From an uncultured Lactobacillus sp. (GTDB lineage Bacteria > Bacillota > Bacilli > Lactobacillales > Lactobacillaceae), in contig NZ_CANBCQ010000029.1 of the NCBI RefSeq assembly GCF_947367125.1, positions 1-35,654 of the forward strand: a DNA stretch of 35,654 nucleotides, in the 5' to 3' direction. Numbering within the stretch: the first letter of the stretch is position 1; each line of letters starts with the position of its first letter. The notes under the pieces were generated by a model. That model was not told the DNA's origin and searched no databases. It was given only the letters and a program-made list of their open reading frames with translations. Position numbers and translations under genes: made by a program. Positions 3,416 to 35,316 of the stretch are shown piece after piece.

Positions 3416-6400
3416 TTAATTTTGTTTCTTTCTCTTAGTGAACTTACTGAAATCAATTCCTTCATAAGTCAACTTAGTAGCAGCTGACAAAGTAATTGGC
3501 AAAATGAAGACTAAGATCAATAAACCAACATCCACAGTCAAGGCAACTTCAATCAAAGTTGGAATACCTGATGGAATGAGGGCTGCAAACGTACCACCCA
3601 AGATAATTGCGGCTGAGATAACCACCGTACCAATGATGGTACATGCCTTTAAGATTCTTGAACTTGGAGTAGTGTAGCCTTCAGTCTCAAGTTCACGATA
3701 ACGTGTCATGAGGAAAATACTGTAGTCAACACCCAAAGCAATCAACATGATAAAGCTGAAGAATGGAGTATTCCAAGTAAGCATGTCTCTGCCAAGAACT
3801 GCCTTAACGATCCATTGGTTAATAGACAATGAGCAGAGGTATGCGATCAGCAAAGTACCAAGAATGTAAACAGGTTGCAATAATGAACGAGTTACAAACA
3901 TCAAGGCAATACCGATACCAATCAACATGATTGCAGCAGTTCTAAGGAAGTCACCACTAGCAACCGTCTTAGTATCCTTGATCTTTGAACTTTGACCACC
4001 CATAGCTACCTTAGCATTCTTAAGTGCAGTACCTTGGAATGACTTCTTAGCCATTGCACTCAATTCTTGTGATTCATTTGTAGCTTCAGTTGCACTTGGG
4101 TTTGAGTTGAAGACAACAATAATTTGAGCTGACTTCTTGTCTGGGCTGAGGTAAACATCCATTGACTTCTTAAACATATCATTCTTTAAGAATTCCTTAG
4201 GGATATAGAAAGTATCAGCGGCAGCTGATGAACCTAAGCCTCTGAGGTAAGTTTCACCTTGGCCCAAACCACTATTAACAGTATCAATACCTGAAGTTAA
4301 TTCAGGAACCTTGTTAGCTAACTTGCCAGCACCTTCGCTAAGTTGACCAGCACCGTTGTTAAGTTGATCTACACCTGAAACAAGAGCTGGAGCTTGGCTA
4401 GCTAATTGACCAACACCACTGTTAAGTTGACCGGCACCATTAGCAAGAGTACCAAGACCATTGTTCAAAGTACCGGCACCGTTTGCTAAAGTACCAAGGC
4501 CATTATTCAAAGTACCAGCACCATTTGCTAAAGTACCAAGACCTGTGTTCAATTGACCCGCGCCATTGTTAAGTCGGTCTATACCCGCACCAAGACGACT
4601 AGCGCCTGACGAAAGTGAACCTAAGCCACTGCTTAATTGACCAGCACCTGAATTAAGTCTTTGTGCGCCTGCCACACCTTGTGAAGCAGCTGATTGAACT
4701 TGCGTCAAGCCTGAGCTTAATTGGTTCAAAGCAGTAGCTGCACCTGGAAGTGCCTTGTTAGAAGCTTGAGCTAAAGTATTAACCTGAGTCTTCAAAGTTT
4801 GAAGTTGATCCATCAAGTTGCTTTGTTGTAGTGCAGCCATTGAACTTTGTAAGCCCTGAGCTGCTGAAGTAGCGTTTGCCATGGCTGACTTCATCTTATC
4901 AGTATTAGCACCTGATTGAGCCTTTTGAACAACAGATTCAACTGCTTGAGTGGCAGCCTTAGTTGCTGCTTCTTGAGCAGCTTGTCTTTGATCAGCTGGT
5001 ACTGATTGTACTGCTGATGAAACTGCTGATGAAATTGCTGATTGAACTTCAGATTGATTTACTGAACTTGAACCAGCACTACCTGCTGCGCTTTGTAATT
5101 CTTTCAAGCTATTTTCAAGATCTGCAGCTTGTTTTTGAACTGTAGCTAAACTATTAGTTAATGATGAAGTATCAACCCCACCGCCAATAGCTTGATTCAA
5201 TTGTTGAATACCACTGTTAATTTGTGGCAAAGCAGTTTGAAGTTGAGCGAGTTGTTGTTTGTTTGAACCACTCAATTGAGTTGAAAGTTGTGAACTCAAT
5301 TGTTGTAATTGGTTAACCATTTGTTGGGTACCACTTTGCAAGCTGTTAGCACCATTCTTTAAGCGATTTGCACCGCTAACTAAGCTGCTTGCACCACTTT
5401 GAAGTGCGTGAGTACCACTTGCCAAACGACCAGCACCTGTTTGTAAACGTACTGCACCACTTTGTAATTGACCGGCACCGTTACGTAAACGATCTGCACC
5501 GCTAACTAATTGGCTTGAACCGCTTTGCAAACGAGTTGCGCCGCTTTGTAATTGGCTAGCACCATTTTGCAAACGACTAGCACCACCAACTAATTGACTA
5601 GCGCCACTTGCCAAACGGCCGGTACCATCATGAAGTTGATCTGCACCATCCTTCAAACTGTTGGCACCATTAGCAACCTTGTTGGCACCCTTACTCAATT
5701 TGCCCAAACCTGAACGAGCTTGATCAACACCGTCATTAACAGTGTTCAATTGATTATTGACATAAAGCATATCAATTGGTTCGCCGTAAGGCTCAGTAAC
5801 TGACGTTGCAAATGATACATCCTTTGAACCTTGAAGTTGCTTAGTTAATTGATCAATCAACTTCAAGTTTTCTTCATTATCTAATCGATGCTTGCTTTGG
5901 ATGTACAAGTATGATGGTTCGGCCATGCCTTTAGAAAAGTGCTTTTGCACTACAAGCAAACCTTGCTTAGATGGAACTGAATCGGCGATTTCATCAGTAT
6001 CGTCGTAATTTAAATGACCGGTATACATCAACATGAACGGAACAGTAACTACAGCTAAAACAACCAAGTAAATAATTGGGTGTTTCAAAGTTGAAGCTGA
6101 AATACCATGCCAAAGCTTATTATCACTTTCACCTGTAAACTTCTTAACAGGCCAAAACATCTTCTTACCAAGGGTAGCCATGAAGAATGGGTTGAGTGTC
6201 AAAAGTACTACCAACAATACGGCAACACCGACAGCAACACCAACGGCTGATTGGTAAATTGAGAACTTAGCTAAACTTAAGGCAGTAAAACCAATTAAGA
6301 TGGATGAACCTGAGTAAAGGATTGTTTTACCAGCGTTGCGAAGCGCATCATGCATCGCCTCATACTTATCCATCCCTTTCCCCAGATCCTCTTTAAACTT

Positions 6401-7168
6401 GTCATACAGCAGGATGTTGTAGTCGGTACCAATACCAAAGAGCACGATAACCATGAATACCTGCGTAAAGTTTGAAAATGGGAAATTGGCGTGTTCAACC
6501 AAATTAGTAACAATTGAGAAGGAAGTAAGGAATGAAACACCAACCGTTAATAATGAAATAAGTGGAACAATTGGTGACTTAAATACAATGATCAAAACAA
6601 TAAAGATAAAGACAACTGTAATTGCTTCGGTCTTCTTAATTCCCTCTTGAATAGAGGCAGAGAAATCATACTGCAAGACATCAGCACCCGTTACATAAGT
6701 TCTAAGTCCTTGTGTCTTAGCCGTTTGATTCATCTGCTTATAAACTTTTTCAATCGTACCATGGCTCTTGGCTACATTAAATTGTGCTACCCAAGTTGTA
6801 CCATCTTTTGATTGAAGTTTCTTTCTTGTAGCAATATTGGAATCAGGGAGCAATGAATCCTTAATTCCGTACTTGCTTTTATCATTAGTAAACTTGTCAA
6901 GCGTATTGTTAATTGCTGTTTTATCAGCATCAGTCAGCTTGCCATGTTCTTTATTAAAAACAAGTGCTACTGCATAGGTGTTTTTCTTCTTCGCACCCCA
7001 GTTGTTTTCAATTGATTGTGCTACATTGCTTTGTACATTACTAGGCAGTGTAATGTCCGAATGGGCATTGGTTAACTCAGTAATATTAGGCAAAGCAACA
7101 ATAGAAATAATCAATATCAAAATCCATGCAATCAATTCGAAAACATGATTTTTCAGAAATTTCTGCAC
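3416..7168 (-). CDS. Giant MMPL-family membrane protein with heptad-repeat extracellular domain
   Basis: 1250 residues, RND/MMPL superfamily. The layout is one N-terminal membrane helix (about 10-27), a first extracellular domain, five or six membrane helices (about 180-350), a very large extracellular insert (about 375-1040), and a second helix bundle (about 1050-1240) with a GVDYSIFLMTRYRE motif. The first bundle has the matching GTDYNILLYDKFKED motif. The insert carries two blocks of seven-residue repeats of the type GAxxLxx (about residues 490-620 and 840-990), separated by an Ala/Gln/Ser-rich stretch. This resembles YhgE/Pip-type proteins and suggests a long coiled coil. Translation starts at GTG after GGGAGG and a nearer AGGAAA. 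It follows tetR by 15 bases and is probably repressed by it. The likely role is export of a lipid or envelope component, or drug efflux; the substrate is unknown. Confidence 0.85.
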   Translation of the reverse strand: MQKFLKNHVFELIAWILILIISIVALPNITELTNAHSDITLPSNVQSNVAQSIENNWGAKKKNTYAVALVFNKEHGKLTDADKTAINNTLDKFTNDKSKYGIKDSLLPDSNIATRKKLQSKDGTTWVAQFNVAKSHGTIEKVYKQMNQTAKTQGLRTYVTGADVLQYDFSASIQEGIKKTEAITVVFIFIVLIIVFKSPIVPLISLLTVGVSFLTSFSIVTNLVEHANFPFSNFTQVFMVIVLFGIGTDYNILLYDKFKEDLGKGMDKYEAMHDALRNAGKTILYSGSSILIGFTALSLAKFSIYQSAVGVAVGVAVLLVVLLTLNPFFMATLGKKMFWPVKKFTGESDNKLWHGISASTLKHPIIYLVVLAVVTVPFMLMYTGHLNYDDTDEIADSVPSKQGLLVVQKHFSKGMAEPSYLYIQSKHRLDNEENLKLIDQLTKQLQGSKDVSFATSVTEPYGEPIDMLYVNNQLNTVNDGVDQARSGLGKLSKGANKVANGANSLKDGADQLHDGTGRLASGASQLVGGASRLQNGASQLQSGATRLQSGSSQLVSGADRLRNGAGQLQSGAVRLQTGAGRLASGTHALQSGASSLVSGANRLKNGANSLQSGTQQMVNQLQQLSSQLSTQLSGSNKQQLAQLQTALPQINSGIQQLNQAIGGGVDTSSLTNSLATVQKQAADLENSLKELQSAAGSAGSSSVNQSEVQSAISSAVSSAVQSVPADQRQAAQEAATKAATQAVESVVQKAQSGANTDKMKSAMANATSAAQGLQSSMAALQQSNLMDQLQTLKTQVNTLAQASNKALPGAATALNQLSSGLTQVQSAASQGVAGAQRLNSGAGQLSSGLGSLSSGASRLGAGIDRLNNGAGQLNTGLGTLANGAGTLNNGLGTLANGAGTLNNGLGTLANGAGQLNSGVGQLASQAPALVSGVDQLNNGAGQLSEGAGKLANKVPELTSGIDTVNSGLGQGETYLRGLGSSAAADTFYIPKEFLKNDMFKKSMDVYLSPDKKSAQIIVVFNSNPSATEATNESQELSAMAKKSFQGTALKNAKVAMGGQSSKIKDTKTVASGDFLRTAAIMLIGIGIALMFVTRSLLQPVYILGTLLIAYLCSLSINQWIVKAVLGRDMLTWNTPFFSFIMLIALGVDYSIFLMTRYRELETEGYTTPSSRILKACTIIGTVVISAAIILGGTFAALIPSGIPTLIEVALTVDVGLLILVFILPITLSAATKLTYEGIDFSKFTKRKKQN
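4431..4556. repeat. Three tandem 42-bp repeats within the MMPL gene
   Basis: Units 4431-4472, 4473-4514 and 4515-4556 are near-identical, each starting CCRGCACC on the plus strand. Each encodes a 14-residue double heptad (GLGTLAN + GAGTLNN type). The in-frame length means copy number can change without a frameshift. Confidence 0.85.
5325..5690. repeat. 21-bp degenerate repeats encoding GAxxLxx heptads
   Basis: About a dozen consecutive 21-bp units in the MMPL gene encode heptads such as GASQLQS, GADRLRN and GAGQLQS. DNA identity between units is lower than in the 4431-4556 block, so this array is older. Confidence 0.75.
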
Positions 7169-8838: not shown

Positions 8839-9765
8839 TTAGAAGAAATGATGCTTTTTCATCAAGATGACCAACCAGACCATTAAGACAACCATCAGGA
8901 TAATAATTAAAACCCAGTCAAATGAGTTTTTTAAGATTGGTAAACTAACATTCATCCCATAAAATCCGGTCAAAATAGTTGGAATCGTCAATACCAATGA
9001 CCACACCGTCAAGAACTGCATCGTATCGTTTAGGTTGTTGTTCATCATATTATTACTTGTAGCTGATAAAGTTTTAGTTACTTGCTGTGAAATCTGGACC
9101 ATTTCTGCTGACTGACTTGACTCAATCAAAACGTCATCCAAACGCTCACTAGCTTCTTTGGTAAAATCTAATTTACTATGATTTAGCCCATGCAGCATGA
9201 TTAAATCAGTTTGAATTGAACTAGACAAATAAACTAAACTTTTTTCAATATTTGATAGTTCTACTAAATCTTTATTATTAATATCATCAGATAATTTTTG
9301 ATCTAAGCTGTTACGTTCAACATCAAGCTGTGTAACGGCACGCTGGAAGTATTGTGATGAATATAAGAAAAAGAGCATTAACAATTCTGTCACATCTTTA
9401 GCTTCTGACAAGCGCTCCCGCATATGCTCATCATTAAATTCATCAAACACATAGCTGGTTGATTCAGTATGAAAAGTAAAAATATTTTCGCCCACTACCA
9501 AAAAAGTAATTGGATGCGAAGTAAAGTGTTTAATTGTGTTAGTTGGCCAAATTGGTACATCATAAACAAGCAAGTGGCTCTTAGTATGCACGTCATAGTC
9601 ATAGTGGGGCCGCTCATGACGGTCAGAAATATAGGAAATAATATCGGGTGTAAAATTAAAATCTTTTTGCAACCGCTCACTATCTTCTTCACTCAAATTA
9701 TTGATGTCATACCACTTATACTTTGTCTTTACCGGAAAATTCTGTTGTCTAATCAACCAGCTCAC
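8839..9765 (-). CDS. corA: CorA-family divalent cation transporter
   Basis: 308 residues, the usual CorA length. A long cytoplasmic funnel domain with charged helices fills the first 240 residues. Two C-terminal membrane helices follow, with the signature GMN at the end of the first (FYGMNVSLP) and a second helix ending in a Lys/His tail. Function is Mg2+, or possibly Co2+/Ni2+, uptake. The reading frame opens at GTG 9765; a TTG three codons on has a better-spaced GAGGTGAG site, so the start is uncertain by three residues. It probably forms a two-gene unit with the downstream beta-lactamase-fold gene. Confidence 0.9.
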   Translation of the reverse strand: MSWLIRQQNFPVKTKYKWYDINNLSEEDSERLQKDFNFTPDIISYISDRHERPHYDYDVHTKSHLLVYDVPIWPTNTIKHFTSHPITFLVVGENIFTFHTESTSYVFDEFNDEHMRERLSEAKDVTELLMLFFLYSSQYFQRAVTQLDVERNSLDQKLSDDINNKDLVELSNIEKSLVYLSSSIQTDLIMLHGLNHSKLDFTKEASERLDDVLIESSQSAEMVQISQQVTKTLSATSNNMMNNNLNDTMQFLTVWSLVLTIPTILTGFYGMNVSLPILKNSFDWVLIIILMVVLMVWLVILMKKHHFF

Positions 9766-9870
9766 CTCAGCTTTTAATTTATTACCTAGTAAATAGTACC
9801 ATTTTTCAATGCAGCGAAGAAACTATAAATTTTATTATCTTAATATAAGGAAAACCAAATTATTATAATC

Positions 9871-9914
9871 AAAAAAGTTCATTTATTAATCAAATTGACC
9901 ATAAATGAACTTTT
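9871..9914 (-). terminator. Terminator of the peptide-island minus-strand operon
   Basis: Perfect 10-bp stem (GTTCATTTAT / ATAAATGAAC) with a 14-base loop, flanked by A/T runs on both sides (AACTTTTTT on the minus strand). It follows the ABC exporter stop at 9928 and marks one edge of the island. Confidence 0.8.
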
Positions 9915-9927
9915 AATTTGTCCCACA

Positions 9928-11520
9928 TTATTGTTTATTATTTAAATCAATCACTCTGTCAAACATTTTCTTTTCTTGATCAGTAATCTTATGTGCAACT
10001 TCGATAACTGCTAAACCGAGATTATTCAAAATGATTTTGTGAATAGCTAACGACAATTTATTATCTAATGAACTAGTCGCTTCATCTGCTAATAAAATTG
10101 GCCGATTAGCCAATAAAGCGCGTGCAATTTCGATCCTTTGAATTTGACCACCTGATAAGTTTTTGCCATTTTCACCTACTTGATAGCCCCACCCCTTTTC
10201 TTTGATTAATTTTTCTAATCCTGCTGTCTTAATCACTTTATTTAAAAACTCATTACTTACACTTCTGCCTAAAGTAATATTAAATCGAAGATTTGCATCA
10301 AAAATAAATGGTCTTTGATTTATATAGCTAAAATAATTATGACTTTTTTCAAAGTTACTAGTTATGTTTAGCTTATCTATAACAATATCGCCATCTAATG
10401 GCTTTAAAATACCCATTAACAGTTTTAAAAAAGTAGTTTTTCCCCACCCGCTCGGAGCTATAAATAATACTTTTTCATTACTTTTAATTTTGAGATTTAA
10501 GTCATTAATAACTGGTGTATCAGAATATGAGTAAGACAAATGTGAGACCGTTAGCATCTCAAACTTGTTTGGCTTGAATGCATCTTCTTCATGCTTGTTA
10601 GTATAATTTAAAGCTGGCTCAATTTTCCTATAAATCGGCTCATTACTCTTAATTTGATTTATTCTATTGTATATATCGATCATTGGATTAATGAATTGAT
10701 TAGACAACTGTACAATCATTATTAATATTCCCACTTGAAGTTGACCACTTAAGATTAAGAGAGAGCCAATTAAAAACGGGATAACAAATCCTATTATCTC
10801 AGCTACAAAAGCTATTATTTCGTATGCTGAATTTTGCGAGAAACTCATCTCTTTTAAATTATTTTCTAATTCTTTAATTGGCTTCATTACATAAGAAATA
10901 AGAGTTGATTGTGTATTATACAATCTTGAAGTTTCAGTACCATTAATAGCATCTGACGCACTTTGCGTATATTCTGAGTTAGATTTTTCCCAACTTTTTG
11001 CTGTTTTCTGAATTTGCTTAGTAAAGTGTGTTTGTACAACACTAGGGATAATTGTTGCAATAGAAAAAATAATAGTTAAAATCCAAGAATTAGCTAATCC
11101 TATAAGTAAAGCAAAAACAAAAGAGCAAACATCTGAAATTATCAATAGATAATTCAAGGTGATTTGTGTTTCTATTTGCTTCAGGTCATTCGTTACCAGA
11201 GATAATTCATTTTTATATGTTTCTTTACCAGCATAAACAAGATAACTAAATACTCTTTTCTTAAGTTCAACATTAATATTTTTTACAATGTCAGACTTTA
11301 GATATTGAAAAAATATATTAGAAATCAAAATGACAAGTAGAGCAATAATTCCTAACATGGCAATTAGAAAAATTTCTTGAAACCTACTATTTCTCTTTAA
11401 AGCTGTGTCAATCATTAATCCTGAAATATATGCAATAGATATATTTCCAAAAGCTTTAATGATAGCCAATATTATATAGAAAGACAGTAAAGATCTAGAT
11501 GCTAATCTTAGTATTTTCAT
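9928..11520 (-). CDS. ABC exporter (fused membrane + ATPase) of the peptide island
   Basis: 530 residues: six membrane helices in about 1-290, then an ATPase domain. The ATPase has Walker A APSGWGKTT (355-363), signature LSGGQ (455-459), Walker B ILLADE with Glu480, and an H-loop His510. There is no N-terminal C39 peptidase domain, so any leader cleavage would need another protease. It is a clear paralogue of the exporter at 27776-29380. Both share the rare Walker A wording, NDLKQIET, HNYFSY and FNITLGR. The ATG follows the previous gene's TAA with no gap, with AGGTGG as ribosome site. It is the last gene of the four-gene minus-strand operon. Inferred cargo: the product of the divergent small peptides. 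Confidence 0.85.
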   Translation of the reverse strand: MKILRLASRSLLSFYIILAIIKAFGNISIAYISGLMIDTALKRNSRFQEIFLIAMLGIIALLVILISNIFFQYLKSDIVKNINVELKKRVFSYLVYAGKETYKNELSLVTNDLKQIETQITLNYLLIISDVCSFVFALLIGLANSWILTIIFSIATIIPSVVQTHFTKQIQKTAKSWEKSNSEYTQSASDAINGTETSRLYNTQSTLISYVMKPIKELENNLKEMSFSQNSAYEIIAFVAEIIGFVIPFLIGSLLILSGQLQVGILIMIVQLSNQFINPMIDIYNRINQIKSNEPIYRKIEPALNYTNKHEEDAFKPNKFEMLTVSHLSYSYSDTPVINDLNLKIKSNEKVLFIAPSGWGKTTFLKLLMGILKPLDGDIVIDKLNITSNFEKSHNYFSYINQRPFIFDANLRFNITLGRSVSNEFLNKVIKTAGLEKLIKEKGWGYQVGENGKNLSGGQIQRIEIARALLANRPILLADEATSSLDNKLSLAIHKIILNNLGLAVIEVAHKITDQEKKMFDRVIDLNNKQ

Positions 11521-12105
11521 TTAAACCACCTGCTTCAAATAAACATATGAAAAAATAGTATTCGCATACTGCCACTTCTGATATTCTGATTCAGAAAATT
11601 GATTTTTATTAAGCGGATTAATTACTCCTATCGTCCCATCTTCTTGCATATTTAAAAATAAAAATTCTGTGTAATTATTCAATAATGGTATACTACCTAT
11701 TTTTTTATAAATATTAGTTGCTACCAAAGAAGCTAAATTAATTTTGTAATTTCTTGCTAAATATATTAACAGTCCACTCAAATAATTTTGTACTAATTCA
11801 CTATCAGCTTCATTTTCTAAACTAGCTAAACTAAATAATGTTTTGTTACAATCGTCTAAAAGCTGTAATTGTTTTATGTTAAAATCAATTTTAGCGTCAC
11901 CTAATATAGCTAAATAATATTGTTTTTCAATAAAAGATAAATTATGTAGCCTAACAATTTTCTTAATCTTGTCATTGTCACTTCTATTTTTCATTACATA
12001 CGCTAACCTATCTGTTTGATTCAACAAATTTATATTTACAGTCTTTGCAAAAATTACAGCATTATTTTCAACTAAATATTTTTTAACTGTTTCCAGTTTA
12101 TTCAT
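11521..12105 (-). CDS. Helical protein with toroid-like C-terminal motif, peptide island
   Basis: 194 residues from the ATG at 12105, which has an AAGGAG site at 7 bases and lies one base after the previous stop. The frame extends 10 codons further upstream but without a ribosome site. It is all-helical in appearance and not confidently recognised. The C-terminus has FLNMQEDGTIG (150-160) followed about 20 residues later by WQYANTIFSYVYL. This parallels QKEDGSLPAPG ... CYHTTMVALG in the 294-aa protein of the same operon. The QxDGxx pattern with a following helix is typical of alpha/alpha-toroid proteins. It may form a complex or a split enzyme with its two neighbours. No signal peptide or membrane segment is visible. 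Confidence 0.65.
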   Translation of the reverse strand: MNKLETVKKYLVENNAVIFAKTVNINLLNQTDRLAYVMKNRSDNDKIKKIVRLHNLSFIEKQYYLAILGDAKIDFNIKQLQLLDDCNKTLFSLASLENEADSELVQNYLSGLLIYLARNYKINLASLVATNIYKKIGSIPLLNNYTEFLFLNMQEDGTIGVINPLNKNQFSESEYQKWQYANTIFSYVYLKQVV

Positions 12106-12106
12106 T

Positions 12107-12802
12107 TTATTCTCCTTGTTGTAATAATAATCCAAAAATCACATCGGGTTCTAATTCTTTAAAATCATATTTGTTTGAAATACCTTGTTTAATATTAAAC
12201 ATAAAGGAAGATAACAGAAACAAAGATATGTCATTATCAAATGATAAACTACTTACAAGATTTTTAATTTTAGTATCTGCTTGAAAATCTTTCTCTATTG
12301 CAAGACAACGAATAAAATCTTTAATCTCTGATTTTTTTAAAAACAATATATTTTCTTCAAAAGAATCACATCGTGGTTGAATTTTAGGTATTAATTCTTT
12401 ATATCGATTTCGATCCTCCAAGTTATAAAATAACTTCAGATAAAATTCATCTGGAAGCTCTAAATTCAAAATAACTGAACTGTAGACTAGTTTTTCAACG
12501 TTCACTTTGAACATCTGAGAAAATTTTTGTTCACTAAAATTTTTTTGCAAAAAATTATTCCAATTACCAAAATACTCAATTAATAATGGATTAGTCATCA
12601 GTAGCGCTTGAATATTCTGCTCGCCACCAACAAATGAATAGATTATATTAAATAATAGCTTGCCTAGTTCCTCTTTTGGCTTATTCCCCCACCTTTTATA
12701 GTCACAATAATATTCACACATTCGTGTTATTTGTAATATTAAATTTCGATCCTTATATTTTGAATCCAATTTATTAATTAAAATTTCCATCACTTTTTTC
12801 AT
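12107..12802 (-). CDS. Unrecognised helical protein of the peptide island
   Basis: 231 residues, rich in Leu, Phe, Asn and Lys, predicted helical and cytosolic; I do not recognise a family. No catalytic motif is obvious. The gene overlaps the end of the 294-aa gene by 29 bases and is followed one base later by the 194-aa gene, so the three are translationally coupled. The start is uncertain: ATG 12802 has a CAGG/AGGAG site rather far upstream, while ATG 12790 (MEILINK) has only a weak one. Together with the 194-aa product it could correspond to a longer toroid protein split into two chains. That is inference from position and the motif in the second chain. Confidence 0.6.
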   Translation of the reverse strand: MKKVMEILINKLDSKYKDRNLILQITRMCEYYCDYKRWGNKPKEELGKLLFNIIYSFVGGEQNIQALLMTNPLLIEYFGNWNNFLQKNFSEQKFSQMFKVNVEKLVYSSVILNLELPDEFYLKLFYNLEDRNRYKELIPKIQPRCDSFEENILFLKKSEIKDFIRCLAIEKDFQADTKIKNLVSSLSFDNDISLFLLSSFMFNIKQGISNKYDFKELEPDVIFGLLLQQGE

Positions 12803-13658
12803 ACAAAAAACCTGCTCCTAACGCTACCATCGTTGTATGATAGCATGCAAAGAATTTCTCCTCTTCACAGCTATATTTACCATCAATTTGCCCTGGTGCT
12901 GGTAAGGATCCATCTTCCTTTTGATAGCTTGAAATAAACGTTATCGCATTCCTTATCATTTTTTGTTGTATTTGATTCAGAGAAATATTCAAAAAATAAC
13001 TTGAAATAATTAACTCAGATAAAATATCTAAATTTTGCTCTAATTCATACACAGGTATTAAATTAAAAATTATATTTAATATTTTATCTTTATTAAATCC
13101 CTCAATATTTTGTCTCCCCATGTCTGTTAAATAAAAAATAGAGTGAGTTATTGAATACGTGCTAATCTCATTTGTATACATATAATTAAAATCTTTTCCT
13201 AATACTGTATTTTTTGCTATATCAGAAAAGCTATTATAATTTGAATAAACTCCTGCCTTGTTCAAAGAATACTTAACATCTATTTTTCTAAAAGCAGAAC
13301 GAGTGGTTAAGAGGTCAAATTTATCATCAACCATCTCCTTTAAAAGTATCTTTTCATGACTAAGATCAATATTGTTGTTTTTACCAAATTCTTGTGCAAC
13401 GGCTACAGCTGAAATAAAACCATGTTCGTGTAAAATAAAATCATTTAAGCTTAATGAATTTAATATTTCTTTAGTCATATTTATTATTTTTCTATGAATT
13501 CGTGGCATAAATGGTAATTCTGGAAAAAACATATTTTCCAAAAATAATAGTTCTGTAAAAGATTTAATACGTAACAAATCTTTTGCATATTTCCTATTTA
13601 CACGCGGATCGAAGAAATCTAAATTGTCATCTATCCAGCGTAGGCATTTTTCATACAT
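12774..13658 (-). CDS. DUF6895-like alpha/alpha-toroid protein, first gene of the peptide-island operon
   Basis: 294 residues, all-helical, no signal peptide. Conserved-looking motifs are THSIFYLTDMG (171-181), QKEDGSLPAPG (246-256) and CYHTTMVALGAG (272-283). The His...Tyr-x-Thr-Asp-x-Gly motif together with the QxDG turn and the last helix resembles proteins annotated DUF6895, from memory and not verified. An alpha/alpha toroid is the fold of LanC cyclases and terpene cyclases, but the LanC zinc motifs (GxxHG, WCxG, CHG) are absent. Conserved His172, Asp179, Cys272 and His274 are candidates for an active site. It starts at ATG 13658 after AAGGCGGAG and is divergent from the small peptides, with overlapping promoters. 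A peptide-modifying role is hypothetical. Confidence 0.65.
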   Translation of the reverse strand: MYEKCLRWIDDNLDFFDPRVNRKYAKDLLRIKSFTELLFLENMFFPELPFMPRIHRKIINMTKEILNSLSLNDFILHEHGFISAVAVAQEFGKNNNIDLSHEKILLKEMVDDKFDLLTTRSAFRKIDVKYSLNKAGVYSNYNSFSDIAKNTVLGKDFNYMYTNEISTYSITHSIFYLTDMGRQNIEGFNKDKILNIIFNLIPVYELEQNLDILSELIISSYFLNISLNQIQQKMIRNAITFISSYQKEDGSLPAPGQIDGKYSCEEEKFFACYHTTMVALGAGFLYEKSDGNFN

Positions 13659-13683
13659 AGCTCCGCCTTCTTTTTTAATCTTA

Positions 13684-13735
13684 TTGACATTTTTAAATAA
13701 TATATTATACTTAATCTAATTTATTTCAAGGAGGT
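13684..13735. promoter_or_regulatory. Overlapping divergent promoters and strong ribosome site of the peptide island
   Basis: Plus strand: TTGACA (13684-13689)-N16-TATACT (13706-13711), then AAGGAGG (13728-13734) eight bases before the peptide ATG. Minus strand: TTGAAA (13729-13724)-N16-TAATAT (13707-13702). The two -10 boxes overlap, and the minus -35 overlaps the peptide ribosome site. Polymerase can hardly occupy both promoters at once, which would make peptide and operon expression antagonistic. Confidence 0.65.
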
Positions 13736-13742
13736 AATCAAA

Positions 13743-13946
13743 ATGTTAAAAAATCTTACTAAGAACCTAGTTTTACATAAAGGCATTTACCTTAAGATTA
13801 AGAATTTAGATTTATCTAAACCTCTTGTAGAAGAAGGCGGTCCCTACGTTTGCGCATGGTCGGATTACGTAGCTATCGTTAAGACGAAAGAAATTGAACC
13901 TCAAAAGGGAAAGAATTTATTCCACTTTACGTCAGTTTTAAGTTAA
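13743..13946 (+). CDS. Small peptide 1, putative precursor of an exported modified peptide
   Basis: 67 residues with a strong AAGGAGG site and near-consensus promoter. The N-terminus is MLKNLTKNL, followed by a basic/hydrophobic stretch, an acidic VEEGG at about 29-33, then PYVCAWSDYV and a 25-residue tail ending FTSVLS. There is one Cys and one Trp. The Gly-Gly before the aromatic segment is reminiscent of a double-glycine leader cleavage site, but the upstream hydrophobic positions do not fit that consensus well. It sits divergently next to the helical proteins and ABC exporter and is followed by a paralogous peptide. Best guess: precursor of a ribosomally made, modified peptide (bacteriocin or signal). 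Direct proof is lacking. Confidence 0.65.
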   Translation: MLKNLTKNLVLHKGIYLKIKNLDLSKPLVEEGGPYVCAWSDYVAIVKTKEIEPQKGKNLFHFTSVLS

Positions 13947-13960
13947 GGTTATGGTGCTTT

Positions 13961-14098
13961 ATGAAGAATCTATCGTTTAACTTAAATAGTGATTCATACG
14001 TTTTTGTTTGGCAAAGTTTTATTTGGGTTAAGCAAAATAAAAAAAAGCTATCCAAAACTAATACAACAAAATTCACGTATGTTGAAGCTTTATCATAA
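13961..14098 (+). CDS. Small peptide 2, paralogue of peptide 1
   Basis: 45 codons, 14 bases after peptide 1 and before the shared terminator. It begins MKNLSFNL, matching MLKNLTKNL of peptide 1. Its last 33 residues start YVFVWQSFIWV and end EALS, lining up without gaps with the last 33 of peptide 1 (YVCAWSDYVAI ... SVLS). Identities are Y, V, W, K, F, L and S, plus conservative changes. Peptide 1 has about 22 extra residues between the two blocks. The Cys of peptide 1 is Phe here. There is no strong ribosome site (only GGTG at a short distance), so translation may be coupled to peptide 1 or weak. Shared termini argue that it is a real gene or a recent relic. Confidence 0.6.
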   Translation: MKNLSFNLNSDSYVFVWQSFIWVKQNKKKLSKTNTTKFTYVEALS

Positions 14099-14155
14099 TC
14101 TTTCTCAATTAAAACTATATATCCACTACTGTAACGTAATAACTAGGTGATATTC

Positions 14156-14189
14156 AACGGATCGATTAATTCAATCAATCCGTTTTTTT
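14156..14189 (+). terminator. Terminator of the small-peptide transcript
   Basis: Stem AACGGATCGATT / AATCAATCCGTT (one mismatch) with a 5-base loop and seven T. It is the first terminator after the two peptides and so supports a bicistronic mRNA. Confidence 0.85.
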
Positions 14190-14198
14190 ATTTGATAC

Positions 14199-14225
14199 AA
14201 AAAAAGCAGACCAAGCGGTCTGCTT
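14199..14225 (-). terminator. Terminator of the Ugp-like operon
   Basis: Stem AGCAGACC / GGTCTGCT with a 4-base loop and a U-run on the minus strand, after the binding-protein gene. The rest of 13947-14250 holds only peptide 2 and the terminator at 14156-14189. Confidence 0.85.
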
Positions 14226-14250
14226 TAAAAAATCGAATTGCTATTTAGTT

Positions 14251-15555
14251 TTATTGCTTCCAAGCAGCATCAAATTTTTGCTTACCAGCTTCGATTTGGC
14301 TGTTAATATTTTGACCCTTTTGTGCTGCAGCATAGATGTTTTGTTGAATAGTATTCAATTGTTGGAATGCAGCGTTAGAGTTCTTAGCAACTGGAACACT
14401 GTACAAGTACTTCATTGCATCTTCAAGCTTAGCTGGAAGCTTGATGCTCTTGTTGTTCTTGTATTCACTAGACTTAATCGCAGCGTTATTTACAGGAATG
14501 TAACCAGTAGCGTTAGCCCACTTGATTTGACTTGATTTGGATACCAAGAACTTAATGTACTTAAAAGCAGCTGCTTTTTGATCAGCACTAGCATGGTTAA
14601 ACATGTAGATGTCAGTACCTTGTTGCAAAGTGTACTTACCAGGACGTGGAGCAACGTCATAAGTAAACTTGTCGCCTACACCTTGCTTAACAAAGCCTTC
14701 ACCTGCTGAAGTACCAACAAACATTGCAACCTTTTCATTAGCAAATGGACCTGAAAGGTAGTGTTCTGAACCAGCAGTTCTGAAGTAGCCCTTCTTGATA
14801 CCATCTGCATAGAAGTTGATAACCTTCTTAGAAGTTGCACCAGTGAAGTTGATCTTGTCTGAGAAGTTTACACCTTCGTCCTTCATACCAAGAGTGTAGT
14901 AGTTAGAAAGTGAATCAAAACCAGCACCTACAACCTTGTGGTTACTCTTCTTGTAGATAGTTTCTGAAACATCTTTAAGTTCTTCCATTGTGGTTGGAAC
15001 TTTCTTGATGCCATATTTCTTAAACATGGTCTTGTTGTAAGTCAAAGTTTCAATTGACTTGTTAAATGGAATACCATATTGCGTACCCTTAATCTTGGCA
15101 CCATCAAGAAGTTCGCTTCTGATATCTGAAGCCTTGGCAGAACCCCAACCAACATTCTTATTGTTGATATATGGAGTTAAATCTACCAACATCTTGTTTT
15201 GTGCTGCGTTCCAAAGCCAACCTGGGTAAGCTTGGGTAATCGTAGGCAAGTTGTTTGGTGATTGCAAAGTTGAGTTAATCTTAGCTTGCAAATCATTATA
15301 TGTACCTTGGTTTTCAAGCTTAATAGTGATCTTAGGATTCTTCTTTTCAAATTCATTGGTTAATTGCCTTAAAGTAGAACCTTGTACTCCAGGCATAGCA
15401 TTCCAGAAGACAACCGTAGTTTGCTTGGTAATCTTTGATGGAATTTTTTCTGAACTTGATGATGAAGAGTTGCTTCCACTCTTTGAACAGGCTGCAGTTC
15501 CCACCAAAGCCAAAGTAGCAATGGTAGCCATAGTAAGTTTCTTACTAAACTTCAT
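14251..15555 (-). CDS. ugpB: Sugar/glycerol-phosphate-type ABC importer binding lipoprotein
   Basis: 434 residues, family 1 extracellular solute-binding protein. A lipoprotein signal with GTAAC lipobox is followed by a Ser-rich linker and the domain, which begins VVFWNAMPGVQGSTLRQLTNEF. The segment SGPFANEKVAMFVGTSAGEG is typical of the family. The frame opens earlier at 15591, but the ATG at 15555 has GGGAGG nine bases upstream and starts the signal peptide MKFSKKL. It is the last gene of a five-gene importer operon (ATPase, two permeases, MBL hydrolase, binding protein). Similarity is to UgpB (glycerol-3-phosphate or its diesters); a sugar substrate cannot be excluded. Confidence 0.75.
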   Translation of the reverse strand: MKFSKKLTMATIATLALVGTAACSKSGSNSSSSSSEKIPSKITKQTTVVFWNAMPGVQGSTLRQLTNEFEKKNPKITIKLENQGTYNDLQAKINSTLQSPNNLPTITQAYPGWLWNAAQNKMLVDLTPYINNKNVGWGSAKASDIRSELLDGAKIKGTQYGIPFNKSIETLTYNKTMFKKYGIKKVPTTMEELKDVSETIYKKSNHKVVGAGFDSLSNYYTLGMKDEGVNFSDKINFTGATSKKVINFYADGIKKGYFRTAGSEHYLSGPFANEKVAMFVGTSAGEGFVKQGVGDKFTYDVAPRPGKYTLQQGTDIYMFNHASADQKAAAFKYIKFLVSKSSQIKWANATGYIPVNNAAIKSSEYKNNKSIKLPAKLEDAMKYLYSVPVAKNSNAAFQQLNTIQQNIYAAAQKGQNINSQIEAGKQKFDAAWKQ

Positions 15556-15606
15556 TTGGATAATCCTCCCAAAAATAAAACTAAACAACAATATGTTTTT
15601 GATTCA

Positions 15607-27775: not shown

Positions 27776-29380
27776 TTACATCTTAGTTTCAATTGTATGA
27801 GTATCTAAGTGAATAATCACATCAAACATGGCCTTTTCTGCCGGCGAAATCTTGTGGGCTACTTCAATTACTGCTACCCGTGGATTTTGCAAAAGTGTCT
27901 TATGGATGCCTAATGACAGATTAGGATCAAGCGCACTAGTTGCTTCATCAGCCAATAAAATTGGGCGGCCTGACAAAAGTGCACGCGCAATTTCTACCCG
28001 CTGAATTTGTCCACCCGACAAACCGCTGCCGTTTTCGCCAACTTTCTTATCCAGTCCTTGTTCTTTGACCAGTTCATCTAGGCCAGCTTCATGAATTACT
28101 TCCTTTAAGTGTTGATCACTCACCTGACGTCCTAAGGTAATGTTAAAACGCAAGGTATCATCAAACATAAATGGTTTTTGATTAACATATGAGAAATAAT
28201 TATGTGCTGCATCCCAATTTCCCGTTACTTCGTGGCCATTAATCAGGATCTTGCCACTTTTAGGTTTTCTCAAACCTAACAGCAAGCGCAATAAGGTCGT
28301 CTTACCCCAGCCACTTGGTGCCATTAACAGCACTTTTTCACCTGGCTTAACTTCCAAGTTCACATTTTCAAAAATTCGCTTGTGGTCACTATTAGTAACG
28401 TATGATAATTGCTCAACCTGCATCCCATCAAAATGATCAATTTTTCCTTTATCATTTTTCATGACATGCCGCAAAGCTCGCTGGGTCTTTTCCCACATTG
28501 GTACAGTCGACTTAACCTGATTAAATTCATTAAAAAGCGTTACGATTGGCGTAATAAAGTTGAGGGCCAAATCAACCATCATCACTAAAGTACCAACTTT
28601 TAAGTTGCCTTGCATCATCATGATCCCACCAATCGTACATGGCACGATGAAACAGAACAATTCAGCGGCAGAATAGATTAACTCTAATGCCCAGGCCTGA
28701 GTCAAAGTCATATTTCTTAGGGCGTTTTCCATCTGTTGGGCCGCATTGGCAGCTCGGGTAACGATGTTAGTGCGCACATTATACAGCTTAGTTGCCTGCG
28801 CTCCATTTAAGGAATCTGATACATTTTGGGTATAATTAGCATTCGTTGTAGCCCAAATCTTGGATTTTCTCGTAATGATCGGACTCGTAATCATTTGCAC
28901 TAATGCCGGAGCCAGCGTCGCAAACAAGAAAACCAAGGTCATTTGCCAAGAACTATAAAAAGCAAAAGTAATTGCCCCCAAAAAAGTTAATCCTTGAAAG
29001 ATCATATCCAATTGGGCTGTGACTCGGTTAGTTTCAATTTGTTTCAAATCATTGGTCATTAAAGACAAGCCGCTTTTAATATCTGGCTCACCTTGATCAA
29101 CTAAGTAACGCAAATTTGCCCGCTTAAAGGTCATATTCACATCACGAATAATCCCCATCTTCACCGTTTCATAGATGAAATTGCTGGCCATAAAACACAT
29201 TTGACCTAAAGCAGTCAAAATAGCCAAACGAACAAGGTGCATGTAGTCATGCGAGCCTGATGAAGCTACGTTTAACATGATTCTCACCATGTAAGCGACA
29301 AATACAACATTGCAGGCCTTAATTGCGGCCAAAATAATATAGCCAATTAGCTGACTTTTTTTAGCGTATTTAAGACTCAT
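27776..29380 (-). CDS. ABC exporter (fused membrane + ATPase), paralogue of the island exporter
   Basis: 534 residues. Six membrane helices lie in about 1-290, and the ATPase domain has Walker A APSGWGKTT (354-362), signature LSGGQ (454-458), Walker B ILLADE (Glu479) and H-loop His509. No peptidase domain. It shares many blocks with the exporter at 9928-11520 but has normal base composition for the window and no biosynthetic neighbours, so it is probably the resident copy. The substrate is unknown; peptides or drugs are usual for this type. The start is the first ATG, after a GGGGAA site. Confidence 0.85.
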   Translation of the reverse strand: MSLKYAKKSQLIGYIILAAIKACNVVFVAYMVRIMLNVASSGSHDYMHLVRLAILTALGQMCFMASNFIYETVKMGIIRDVNMTFKRANLRYLVDQGEPDIKSGLSLMTNDLKQIETNRVTAQLDMIFQGLTFLGAITFAFYSSWQMTLVFLFATLAPALVQMITSPIITRKSKIWATTNANYTQNVSDSLNGAQATKLYNVRTNIVTRAANAAQQMENALRNMTLTQAWALELIYSAAELFCFIVPCTIGGIMMMQGNLKVGTLVMMVDLALNFITPIVTLFNEFNQVKSTVPMWEKTQRALRHVMKNDKGKIDHFDGMQVEQLSYVTNSDHKRIFENVNLEVKPGEKVLLMAPSGWGKTTLLRLLLGLRKPKSGKILINGHEVTGNWDAAHNYFSYVNQKPFMFDDTLRFNITLGRQVSDQHLKEVIHEAGLDELVKEQGLDKKVGENGSGLSGGQIQRVEIARALLSGRPILLADEATSALDPNLSLGIHKTLLQNPRVAVIEVAHKISPAEKAMFDVIIHLDTHTIETKM

Positions 29381-30559: not shown

Positions 30560-31174
30560 ATGAAACAAAATAAAACATTAATTAAACTAGCTAGCAGTGT
30601 AGCATTAACTGGAGCATTAGTATTAGGTGCTACCGCATGTAGTAATAATAGTAATGAATCTAGCAGTCAGTCTTCAAAAGTCTCAAAAGCTAAGAAAAAT
30701 ACTAAAAAAGCAGTTAAACAAAACGAGACTAAATTGAAGAGAGCAAAAATTCAAGTTAGTCAGCAATCCGCATTAAATAAATTTAATGAAAAATATCCAG
30801 ACACCGAAATCAAAGAGCTTGATTTAAAGTTAGAAAATAATAATTATGTCTACGAAATTGATGGTTTTGATAAAACTAAAGAATACTCAGCAACTATTGA
30901 TGCAAATGATGGTAGGCTCATTCACTCAAGTTCAGAAAAACTAGATTTGGACGAGCTTAATCAAAAGGCTTTAAATTTCGACAGTTTGATCAGCCGCGAT
31001 GAAGCAACAAAAATTGCTGAAAAGAACGCAACCGGTGTAGGTAAAGAATGGAATCTAGAACAAGACCACGACATCGCTTACTGGAACGTAAAAGTTAGTG
31101 ATGGCACTAAAACTACTGAAGTCAAAATTGATGCACAAACTAAGAAAGTTATTTCAACTAAAAATGATGATTAA
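30560..31174 (+). CDS. PepSY-domain lipoprotein
   Basis: 204 residues. Lipoprotein signal with lipobox GATAC (Cys27), a Ser/Lys-rich linker, then two PepSY repeats: about 70-125 (ALNKFNEKYPDTEI ... YEIDGFD ... TIDANDGRLI) and about 145-202 (SRDEATKIAEKNATG ... WNVKVSDG ... KIDAQTKKVIS). PepSY domains are thought to inhibit or bind proteases outside the cell. It is a paralogue of the protein at 34729-35316, and both genes have a similar upstream palindrome. ATG follows TTAGGAG. Ends in a terminator. Confidence 0.8.
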   Translation: MKQNKTLIKLASSVALTGALVLGATACSNNSNESSSQSSKVSKAKKNTKKAVKQNETKLKRAKIQVSQQSALNKFNEKYPDTEIKELDLKLENNNYVYEIDGFDKTKEYSATIDANDGRLIHSSSEKLDLDELNQKALNFDSLISRDEATKIAEKNATGVGKEWNLEQDHDIAYWNVKVSDGTKTTEVKIDAQTKKVISTKNDD

Positions 31175-34665: not shown

Positions 34666-34728
34666 CCTTGTGATTATGTAATATATAATATCAGTAAACA
34701 TATAGAACATAATAACGAGGTGGAATTC

Positions 34729-35316
34729 ATGAGAAAATTTTTTATCATTATCAGCAGCATTATTACTGGGTTACTTATTGGGATAATTGGGGCAACGATC
34801 TATCTAAATAGTCAATCGTCAAAGGTAAGTAACTTTACCATTCGAACTACTAATTTAACAGCTAAAACGAAAATGATCAGCTATTCTAGCAATAACCTGC
34901 CACAGATTAATCTCTCACAGGATTCCGCCGTTCAGAAATTCAAATCATTATATACACATGCAGTAGTTAAATCGATCACACTTAGTTTAAGTAAAGATAT
35001 CTATGTTTATGACATAGTAGGCTATGATGACCGTAAAGACTGTACTATTCAGGTTGACGCAACTAATAACAAGATTCTAGGTCAGTCTACGCAGGTGCTT
35101 GATTATGACTACGAAAAAGATGCGTCTTTGAACCTAAAAAAGACAATTTCACGCCAAGAAGCTAATGAAATTGCCCTAAAAGAATTCAGTGGAGGAACAC
35201 CGATTTCATGGGAATTAACTGATGACAATGATCAATCAATTTGGGAAGTTAAAATGATCCACGGTGAACACAAACATACCGTAAAAATTAATGCTAGAAC
35301 AAAGGCTATAATCTAA
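34729..35316 (+). CDS. PepSY-domain membrane-anchored protein
   Basis: 195 residues from ATG 34729, which has GAGGTGG five bases upstream; a GTG nine bases earlier lies in that site. One N-terminal membrane helix (about 5-26, no lipobox Cys) and two PepSY repeats, about 60-115 (SAVQKFKSLYTHAVV ... YDIVGYD ... VDATNNKILG) and about 135-193 (SRQEANEIALKEFSGG ... WEVKMIHG ... INARTKAI). Paralogue of the lipoprotein at 30560-31174, with the lipid anchor replaced by a membrane anchor. Confidence 0.8.
   Translation: MRKFFIIISSIITGLLIGIIGATIYLNSQSSKVSNFTIRTTNLTAKTKMISYSSNNLPQINLSQDSAVQKFKSLYTHAVVKSITLSLSKDIYVYDIVGYDDRKDCTIQVDATNNKILGQSTQVLDYDYEKDASLNLKKTISRQEANEIALKEFSGGTPISWELTDDNDQSIWEVKMIHGEHKHTVKINARTKAII

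Follow-up and report, generated by a model that had tools for sequence, protein, structure and literature searches.

A two-precursor peptide locus with a DUF6895 protein

The DNA analysed here (the window) is a stretch of 35,654 nucleotides (nt) from contig NZ_CANBCQ010000029.1 of an uncultured Lactobacillus sp., and our subject is an island at about positions 9808-14196, in which four minus-strand genes, for proteins of 294, 231, 194 and 530 amino acids (aa), lie opposite two plus-strand genes for peptides of 67 and 45 aa. In our reading, the island is a two-precursor locus for ribosomally synthesized and post-translationally modified peptides (RiPPs), in which the 294-aa protein, a member of the Pfam family DUF6895, would act as an epimerase of a non-radical kind, with the 231- and 194-aa proteins as helpers and export by the 530-aa ATP-binding cassette (ABC) protein; we put the probability of this reading at about 0.6. 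The RiPP nature of the locus in itself is well supported, because a ribosomal precursor with a conserved core adjoins the proposed modifying enzyme. An earlier sequence-only reading of this DNA had likewise proposed a RiPP locus that fits no named class, and this view stands, with the 294-aa protein now assigned to DUF6895. In the open-licence texts, stand-alone DUF6895 RiPP loci carrying such a core were found described nowhere, and the locus is best read as a RiPP family undescribed in the texts searched.

According to the proposed mechanism, the two peptides would be made from a promoter-like site of their own, and the DUF6895 protein, aided by the 231- and 194-aa proteins, would invert one or more alpha carbons in their aromatic-hydrophobic core. 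The inversion would proceed by acid/base chemistry on invariant His, Asp, Glu and Tyr residues and give D-residues without a radical S-adenosylmethionine (SAM) enzyme. Once freed, perhaps by a cut near the Gly-Gly that stands before it in the 67-aa precursor, the core would be secreted through the ABC transporter as a narrow-spectrum bacteriocin or a signal. A broader proposition, that a RiPP class spanning Bacillota and Actinomycetota uses DUF6895 and its partners to put D-residues into a Y-V-x-A-W-x-x-Y-V-x-x-V core without radical SAM, and that the 4.4-kb two-precursor cassette is exchanged among lactobacilli, appears to us evenly poised between right and wrong.

The precursor peptides and their core

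The two precursors, EEGGPYVCAWSDYVAIVKT (67 aa, positions 13743-13946, plus strand) and SDSYVFVWQSFIWVKQ (45 aa, 13961-14098, plus strand), are paralogous, as had been claimed from the sequence alone (global alignment z 4.6; 1/1000 shuffles). The core of the first, YVCAWSDYVAIV (13845-13880, plus strand), resembles open reading frames (ORFs) of Streptomyces and Kitasatospora that adjoin a DUF6895 gene (YVLAWERYVLVV, YVLAWDKYVLVV); the core of the second is YVFVWQSFIWV (13997-14029, plus strand). When the best 12-mers are compared with the precursors of a Kitasatospora plasmid (L035, ISGYVLAWDKYVLVVP) and a Streptomyces plasmid (L037, VAGYVLAWERYVLVVA), the longer window peptide reaches a score of 81, where shuffled sequences give 34.5 (sd 5.7) and none of 5000 does as well; the 45-aa peptide is equalled by 3 of 5000. 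In this test the two peptides take ranks 1 and 2 among the 331 ORFs of at least 25 aa in the window. AT-rich DNA commonly has short ORFs, and the two genes could in principle be chance frames with no functional tie to the operon next to them; we give next to no credence to this explanation, in view of these ranks, of a core that is found across phyla and of both frames being intact in L. kitasatonis. Between the window and L. kitasatonis the 67-aa peptide shows a nonsynonymous divergence (dN) of 0.045 and a synonymous divergence (dS) of 0.162 (7 and 6 changes), and 6 of the 7 changed residues lie outside the core.

The tryptophan of the core (W39 in the 67-aa peptide) is invariant in 9/9 aligned precursors. 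A [GSA]G pair directly precedes the core in 9 of 11 precursors with the tryptophan-containing (W) core, the exceptions being the two 45-aa ones; in the 67-aa peptide this is the Gly-Gly of residues 32-33 (13836-13841, plus strand). Judged from its sequence and position, the pair is a plausible cleavage point. The precursors also share, by eye, a C-terminal motif.

Three precursors from the genus g43 (L029, L030 and L041: AAGFVVWSGWLLVYP, AGGIAIWSGWALVWP and ASGVLAWSFWAVVG) align globally with the window peptides at z 5.0 and 2.7 (0 and 8/1000 shuffles), which places the latter first and second among 99 ORFs of 40-75 aa. The core statistics on the first loci are post hoc, because the motif was drawn up after the peptides had been seen. 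The loci L079 and L080, which belong to other orders within the class, were retrieved only once the motif had been written down and are thus out-of-sample; their precursors, PDGGVLAWSGYVLVWKAD and EQSGNTFAWSGWVLVVPSQ, carry like cores, GGVLAWSGYVLVW and SGNTFAWSGWVLVV. In L081 the corresponding peptide, EGGMVICNHNYCIVARD, is missing the tryptophan, and the DUF6895 gene next to it is broken. Written as a regular expression, the core proved too strict a pattern: L029, L030, L041, L079 and L080 escaped it, and three unrelated sequences were hit in 585 kb of DNA. A profile of nine precursors, which recovers both island peptides by construction, found no third copy in the window's own genome, the next match having an E-value of 0.2.

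The DUF6895 protein and its invariant residues

The 294-aa protein (12774-13658, minus strand) is a clear member of DUF6895 (PF21836): the match has an E-value of 8e-38, scores 130.9 bits against a cut-off of 23.8 and covers residues 4-283 of 294. The family occurs once in the window's own genome. Outside L. kitasatonis its members are only 15-35% identical to the window protein, and Y168, T171, H172, D211, E215, Y273 and H274 are invariant in all 20 intact proteins aligned, which span Bacillota, Actinomycetota and a Cupriavidus plasmid. This count and the tree described below refer to the same 20 proteins, set apart from the truncated one of L016 and the broken ones of L021, L022, L042 and L081; the truncated protein keeps the invariant residues in a separate alignment (19/19). 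The retention of seven residues in three phyla suggests one chemistry for the family, and two His, an Asp and a Glu among them would suit an acid/base or metal site. A member of the family is named as a lasso-peptide epimerase in the title of Shi et al. 2026, (doi 10.1021/acscatal.5c08590), as cited in a review of interlocked peptides (PMC13352647) that was the one paper found by a full-text search for the family name, and by analogy with this other member, in its lasso context, the 294-aa protein is a candidate peptide epimerase.

The same data bear on another explanation, namely that the locus is a RiPP locus in which DUF6895 performs other chemistry on the precursor, such as leader proteolysis, cross-linking or a side-chain change, and that the lasso epimerase is a special case. 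The low identity within the family, the long branches of its tree and partner proteins without known function are all compatible with such a shift in activity. Seven invariants kept in 20/20 proteins, from Bacillota and Actinomycetota to the Cupriavidus plasmid, argue against it, and no known peptidase or redox family was matched in Pfam or NCBIfam by the 294-, 231- or 194-aa protein. We regard this alternative as a real one, although with only about a third of the weight that we give to epimerisation.

When the sequences of solved structures were searched with a DUF6895 alignment of 14 rows, no match appeared up to E 10; the helical folds of the sequence-only reading are predictions. A phage search found no DUF6895 relative, one scan of viral contigs found no relative, a plasmid search with a divergent DUF6895 query gave no match, and a search of open-licence texts for PF21836/IPR054190 and DUF6902 found nothing.

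DUF6895 loci in other genomes

The sequence-only reading had asked whether peptides of this kind accompany the 294-aa family in other genomes, and had counted against itself a family that occurs without nearby peptides, or peptides without conservation. For the 294-aa family the opposite was found. We read the neighbourhoods of DUF6895 in 20 genomes and, counted apart, in 5 plasmid records; a candidate precursor ORF adjoins DUF6895 in 16 of the 20 genomes (the window, G029, G101, G185, G257, G440, G457, G553, G575, G603, G656, G1256, G1262, G1350, G1417 and G1428), and the core is found again in a second phylum. Two of these genomes, G1262 and G1428, have the peptide ORF next to a broken DUF6895 gene. 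The four genomes in which no precursor was seen comprise two with broken genes (G167 and G431), one in which the locus meets a contig end (G424) and one with an intact DUF6895 gene (G237). A transporter is adjacent in 18/20 genomes, none having been seen in G237 and G1428: ABC exporters of the window's type in 15 (broken in G431 and G167), a major facilitator superfamily transporter in G185, and only an ABC ATPase and permease pair in G1350 and G1417. Gene names in these neighbourhoods were given by eye, except for the six island proteins, the exporter paralogue and ten proteins of related loci scanned with Pfam. The second copy of the G101 locus was dropped from the tally: L018 and L023 show one DUF6895 locus at the two ends of a single contig, with the frames broken in the second copy, and are probably overlapping contig ends.

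An ORF of 45-80 aa with a ribosome site lies at most 250 nt upstream of 7/18 DUF6895 genes versus 8/207 other genes (Fisher p 3e-5). This test covers 18 of the 25 loci (L016, L021, L022, L042, L081, L036 and L037 being outside it) and is blind to divergent or distant precursors, the window's own included. Among the plasmid records, the W core is found in L035 and L037, and small upstream ORFs with a shared leader motif in L034 and L038; a 125-aa ORF in L036 could not be judged. The upstream ORFs of L034, L035, L037 and L038, from actinobacterial and Pseudalkalibacillus plasmids, have in common an SG[IL][LIV][ND]-type stretch in the leader, which was not noticed in the Lactobacillales precursors. 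In the DUF6895 tree the W-core label requires 3 changes, versus 6.8 when labels are shuffled, and 1/500 shuffles is as low.

A second group of loci (L017-L020, L031-L033 and L042) has other candidate precursors, such as EKWTFIQIYKSSS, of which 6/8 are similar to the other members (z 3.1-6.4, partly via two close pairs). Two of its loci carry Rgg-type regulators that are divergent from the DUF6895 locus, at L017:8591-9484 and L031:6177-7079 (Pfam Rgg_C, 1e-28 and 4e-16), which hints at quorum control of this precursor group; a third Rgg fragment, in L029, is a weak match. The regulators would also suit an explanation in which the peptides act as pheromones or bacteriocins without being modified and the 294-, 231- and 194-aa proteins are regulators, chaperones or immunity proteins, all the more as mature short hydrophobic peptide (SHP) pheromones carry no modification in the excerpted text of PMC12445099. 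We consider this unlikely: no Rgg was seen among the island ORFs, the island has a dedicated exporter, and its DUF6895 protein has enzyme-like invariant residues and belongs to a family for which the title of Shi et al. 2026 reports enzymatic activity.

In genus g43, an ABC ATPase and a small membrane protein lie between precursor and DUF6895 gene (L029:956-2384, L030:5033-6395 and L041:7269-8710). The pair could possibly confer self-immunity, a function for which the window has no such pair.

Several observations weigh against epimerisation by DUF6895 of one widespread core. The assignment of the enzymatic function rests on a title about another family member in a lasso setting, and the chemistry is a prediction from sequence. 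G237 has an intact DUF6895 gene and neither peptide nor exporter was seen there. None of the eight second-group precursors matches the W core well (best 335/5000), and those of L019 (z 1.6) and L031 (z 1.0) are unlike the rest of their own group. The DUF6895 proteins of W-core loci do not form one clade (0% of bootstrap trees, in a tree with many unsure branches). The window peptides match the g43 precursors weakly in ungapped 10-mer tests (330 and 1988/5000), and these tests came first, the gapped global alignment and the actinobacterial 12-mer test, both strong, having come afterwards; matches between the g43 precursors and the actinobacterial cores reach only 12, 52 and 152/5000. Profile comparison ties the 194-aa family weakly to DUF6895 (probability 10%) and to the fused domain described below (15%), no link was found from either to the 231-aa family, and neither a protease nor an immunity gene was identified at the island.

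An acquired island

The island is a cleanly inserted, acquired unit. In L044 and L045, the two loci nearest by their right-hand flank protein (99% and 98% identity), window positions 9807 and 14197 sit 14 nt apart (blastn to the window), and it is on this ground that we set the island limits at about 9808-14196. On its left lies a gene that is CorA-like by eye (8839-9765) and on its right one for a solute-binding lipoprotein, again by eye (14251-15591). The right-hand flank protein matched 71 genomes in a search of 75, and both flanks lie within the same 3.9-kb piece in 28/28 fetched loci, the window and L. kitasatonis not being counted. In L. kitasatonis the island occupies the corresponding site and is 95.3% identical over 4501 aligned columns; in 500-nt bins, with the two that straddle the island ends left out, identity is 94-97% inside the island and 70-90% outside it. 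The L. kitasatonis counterpart of the right flank gene (L014, 5640-6943) is split into two frames, either through a sequencing error or as a pseudogene.

DUF6895 is rare: it occurs in 2/75 genomes of the genus, and in 9/397, 6/395 and 6/396 genomes of the family, order and class samples; in the phylum sample (1/398) the only case is the window's own genome. The samples overlap and each includes that genome.

Putative partner proteins and exporter

Neither the 231-aa protein (12107-12802, minus strand) nor the 194-aa protein (11521-12105, minus strand, from its ATG start) matched a Pfam or NCBIfam family. The former has a counterpart in a like position in related loci, with a weak alignment. 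The latter ends in a C-terminal DGxxGxxxP motif, and an alternative TTG start at 12135 would lengthen it to 204 aa. In Kitasatospora and Streptomyces, DUF6895 is fused to further sequence and takes up the N-terminal half of the protein (residues 10-294 in one of 584 aa, 18-301 in one of 577 aa); the C-terminal part has a G-x-[FI]-G stretch in common with the 194-aa family, and comparison of this family with the fused-domain set gives an hhalign E-value of 0.0017 but a probability of 15%. The fusion in two actinomycetes suggests, weakly, that the 194-aa protein works together with DUF6895. The helper roles of both proteins would thus follow from their neighbourhood, with this weak match in addition for the 194-aa one. 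That the two are paralogues of DUF6895 was considered and is not claimed, the profile comparison giving a probability of 10% for the 194-aa protein and about 0 for the 231-aa protein.

The 530-aa protein (9928-11520, minus strand) has the membrane and ATPase domains of an ABC exporter (Pfam ABC_membrane 4e-23, ABC_tran 7e-23), and no C39 peptidase domain was matched in it by Pfam. No radical SAM enzyme was matched in any of the six island proteins (Pfam, NCBIfam); the sequence-only reading had recognised neither C39 peptidase nor radical SAM. The best NCBIfam match of the exporter is GggC, the streptosactin exporter, with 191 bits against a cut-off of 750. It presumably exports the core peptides. 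A second ABC exporter of the window (27776-29380) is 43.5% identical to it, matches GggC equally well (202 bits) and has no DUF6895-type gene adjoining it.

Comparison with known peptide systems

Known routes to D-residues in ribosomal peptides are mostly radical SAM enzymes or dehydration followed by reduction. D-residues make peptides protease-resistant. If our reading is true, motif-predictable precursors and a different enzyme family would allow genomes to be mined in a new way (by DUF6895 plus a W-x-x-aromatic core), the compact cassette might explain competition among lactobacilli, and DUF6895 would supply a simple peptide-epimerase tool. Given the core motif and the seven invariants, the idea can be tested directly.

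Epipeptides (YydF/EpeX of Bacillus subtilis) are defined, in the excerpted text of PMC7026026, by epimerisations as their sole modification. A small precursor and a small operon with an ABC transporter are features that the island has in common with them, and epimerisation as sole modification is what we propose for it. They differ in their enzymes, which are an epimerase of the radical SAM kind and a protease in the membrane, whereas at the island no radical SAM enzyme was matched and no protease identified. The island product would, by analogy, resemble an epipeptide made by other enzymology.

The lasso epimerase MslH (MS-271) epimerises a peptide by metal-dependent acid/base chemistry without radical SAM, using two His/Asp pairs beside a Ca ion, as far as the excerpts of PMC10406935 go. 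Epimerisation without radical SAM is its likeness to our proposal, and the lasso epimerase of Shi et al. is, by its title, of the DUF6895 family. In contrast to MslH, which has a calcineurin-like fold, the 294-aa protein did not match the Pfam family of calcineurin-like metallophosphoesterases. Since radical SAM and lasso enzymes are unmatched among the island proteins, the island is neither an epipeptide nor a lasso locus by membership, and a lasso cluster was rejected as its identity. That the island makes a lasso peptide with a protease and a cyclase encoded elsewhere in the genome is an explanation that might be drawn from the sole cited work on DUF6895, which concerns lasso peptides. We hold it to be very improbable: these enzymes were not matched in the six island proteins (the rest of the genome was not scanned for them), an inspection by eye, without a scan for lasso enzymes, of the ORF lists of related loci turned up none, and the island is a unit without them.

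RiPPs made by radical SAM enzymes under SHP/Rgg control (streptide, streptosactin and ryptide) likewise combine a small precursor with an exporter in the excerpts of PMC12445099, and Rgg is found at two loci related to the island; they differ from the island, among whose proteins no radical SAM enzyme was matched and in which no Rgg was seen. Double-glycine bacteriocins with a C39 exporter were rejected as a class for the locus, the island exporter having no C39 match.

Gene layout, signals and other features

The gene layout of the sequence-only reading proved exact on recheck in sizes, strands and spacing: the 294- and 231-aa genes overlap by 29 nt, and the gaps between the 231- and 194-aa genes and between the 194- and 530-aa genes are 1 and 0 nt. 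Its AT-rich block is equally borne out, with 26-30% G+C in the 1-kb bins of 10001-14000 and 31-44% in the remaining bins. The 67-aa gene has the ribosome site AAGGAGG (13728-13734, plus strand); that of the 45-aa gene, AAGG, is weaker and farther off. A promoter-like site, TTGACA-16-TATACT (13684-13711, plus strand), ends 31 nt upstream of the 67-aa gene. It is the best in the region, with 11/12 consensus positions, which by itself is no evidence that it functions; the region has 26 promoter-like sites versus a shuffle mean of 31.7, and thus no excess.

Both bounding terminators out-fold shuffled sequences, the right-hand one only moderately. A bidirectional hairpin (9868-9922) ends the operon, with fold z -4.4 on the plus and -4.9 on the minus strand and 0/200 shuffles as good; the terminator of the peptide transcript (14152-14195, plus strand) has z -2.7, with 4/200 shuffles as good, and is followed by seven T. 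An automatic terminator scan listed neither hairpin; it did list one on the minus strand at 14203-14226, adjoining the following gene.

Elsewhere in the window, two similar proteins of about 200 aa with a hydrophobic start (30560-31174 and 34720-35316) are apparently paralogues, by eye, and a 1250-aa membrane protein (3416-7168) contains in its mid-region a long run of near-repeated short units of the GAxxLxxG type.

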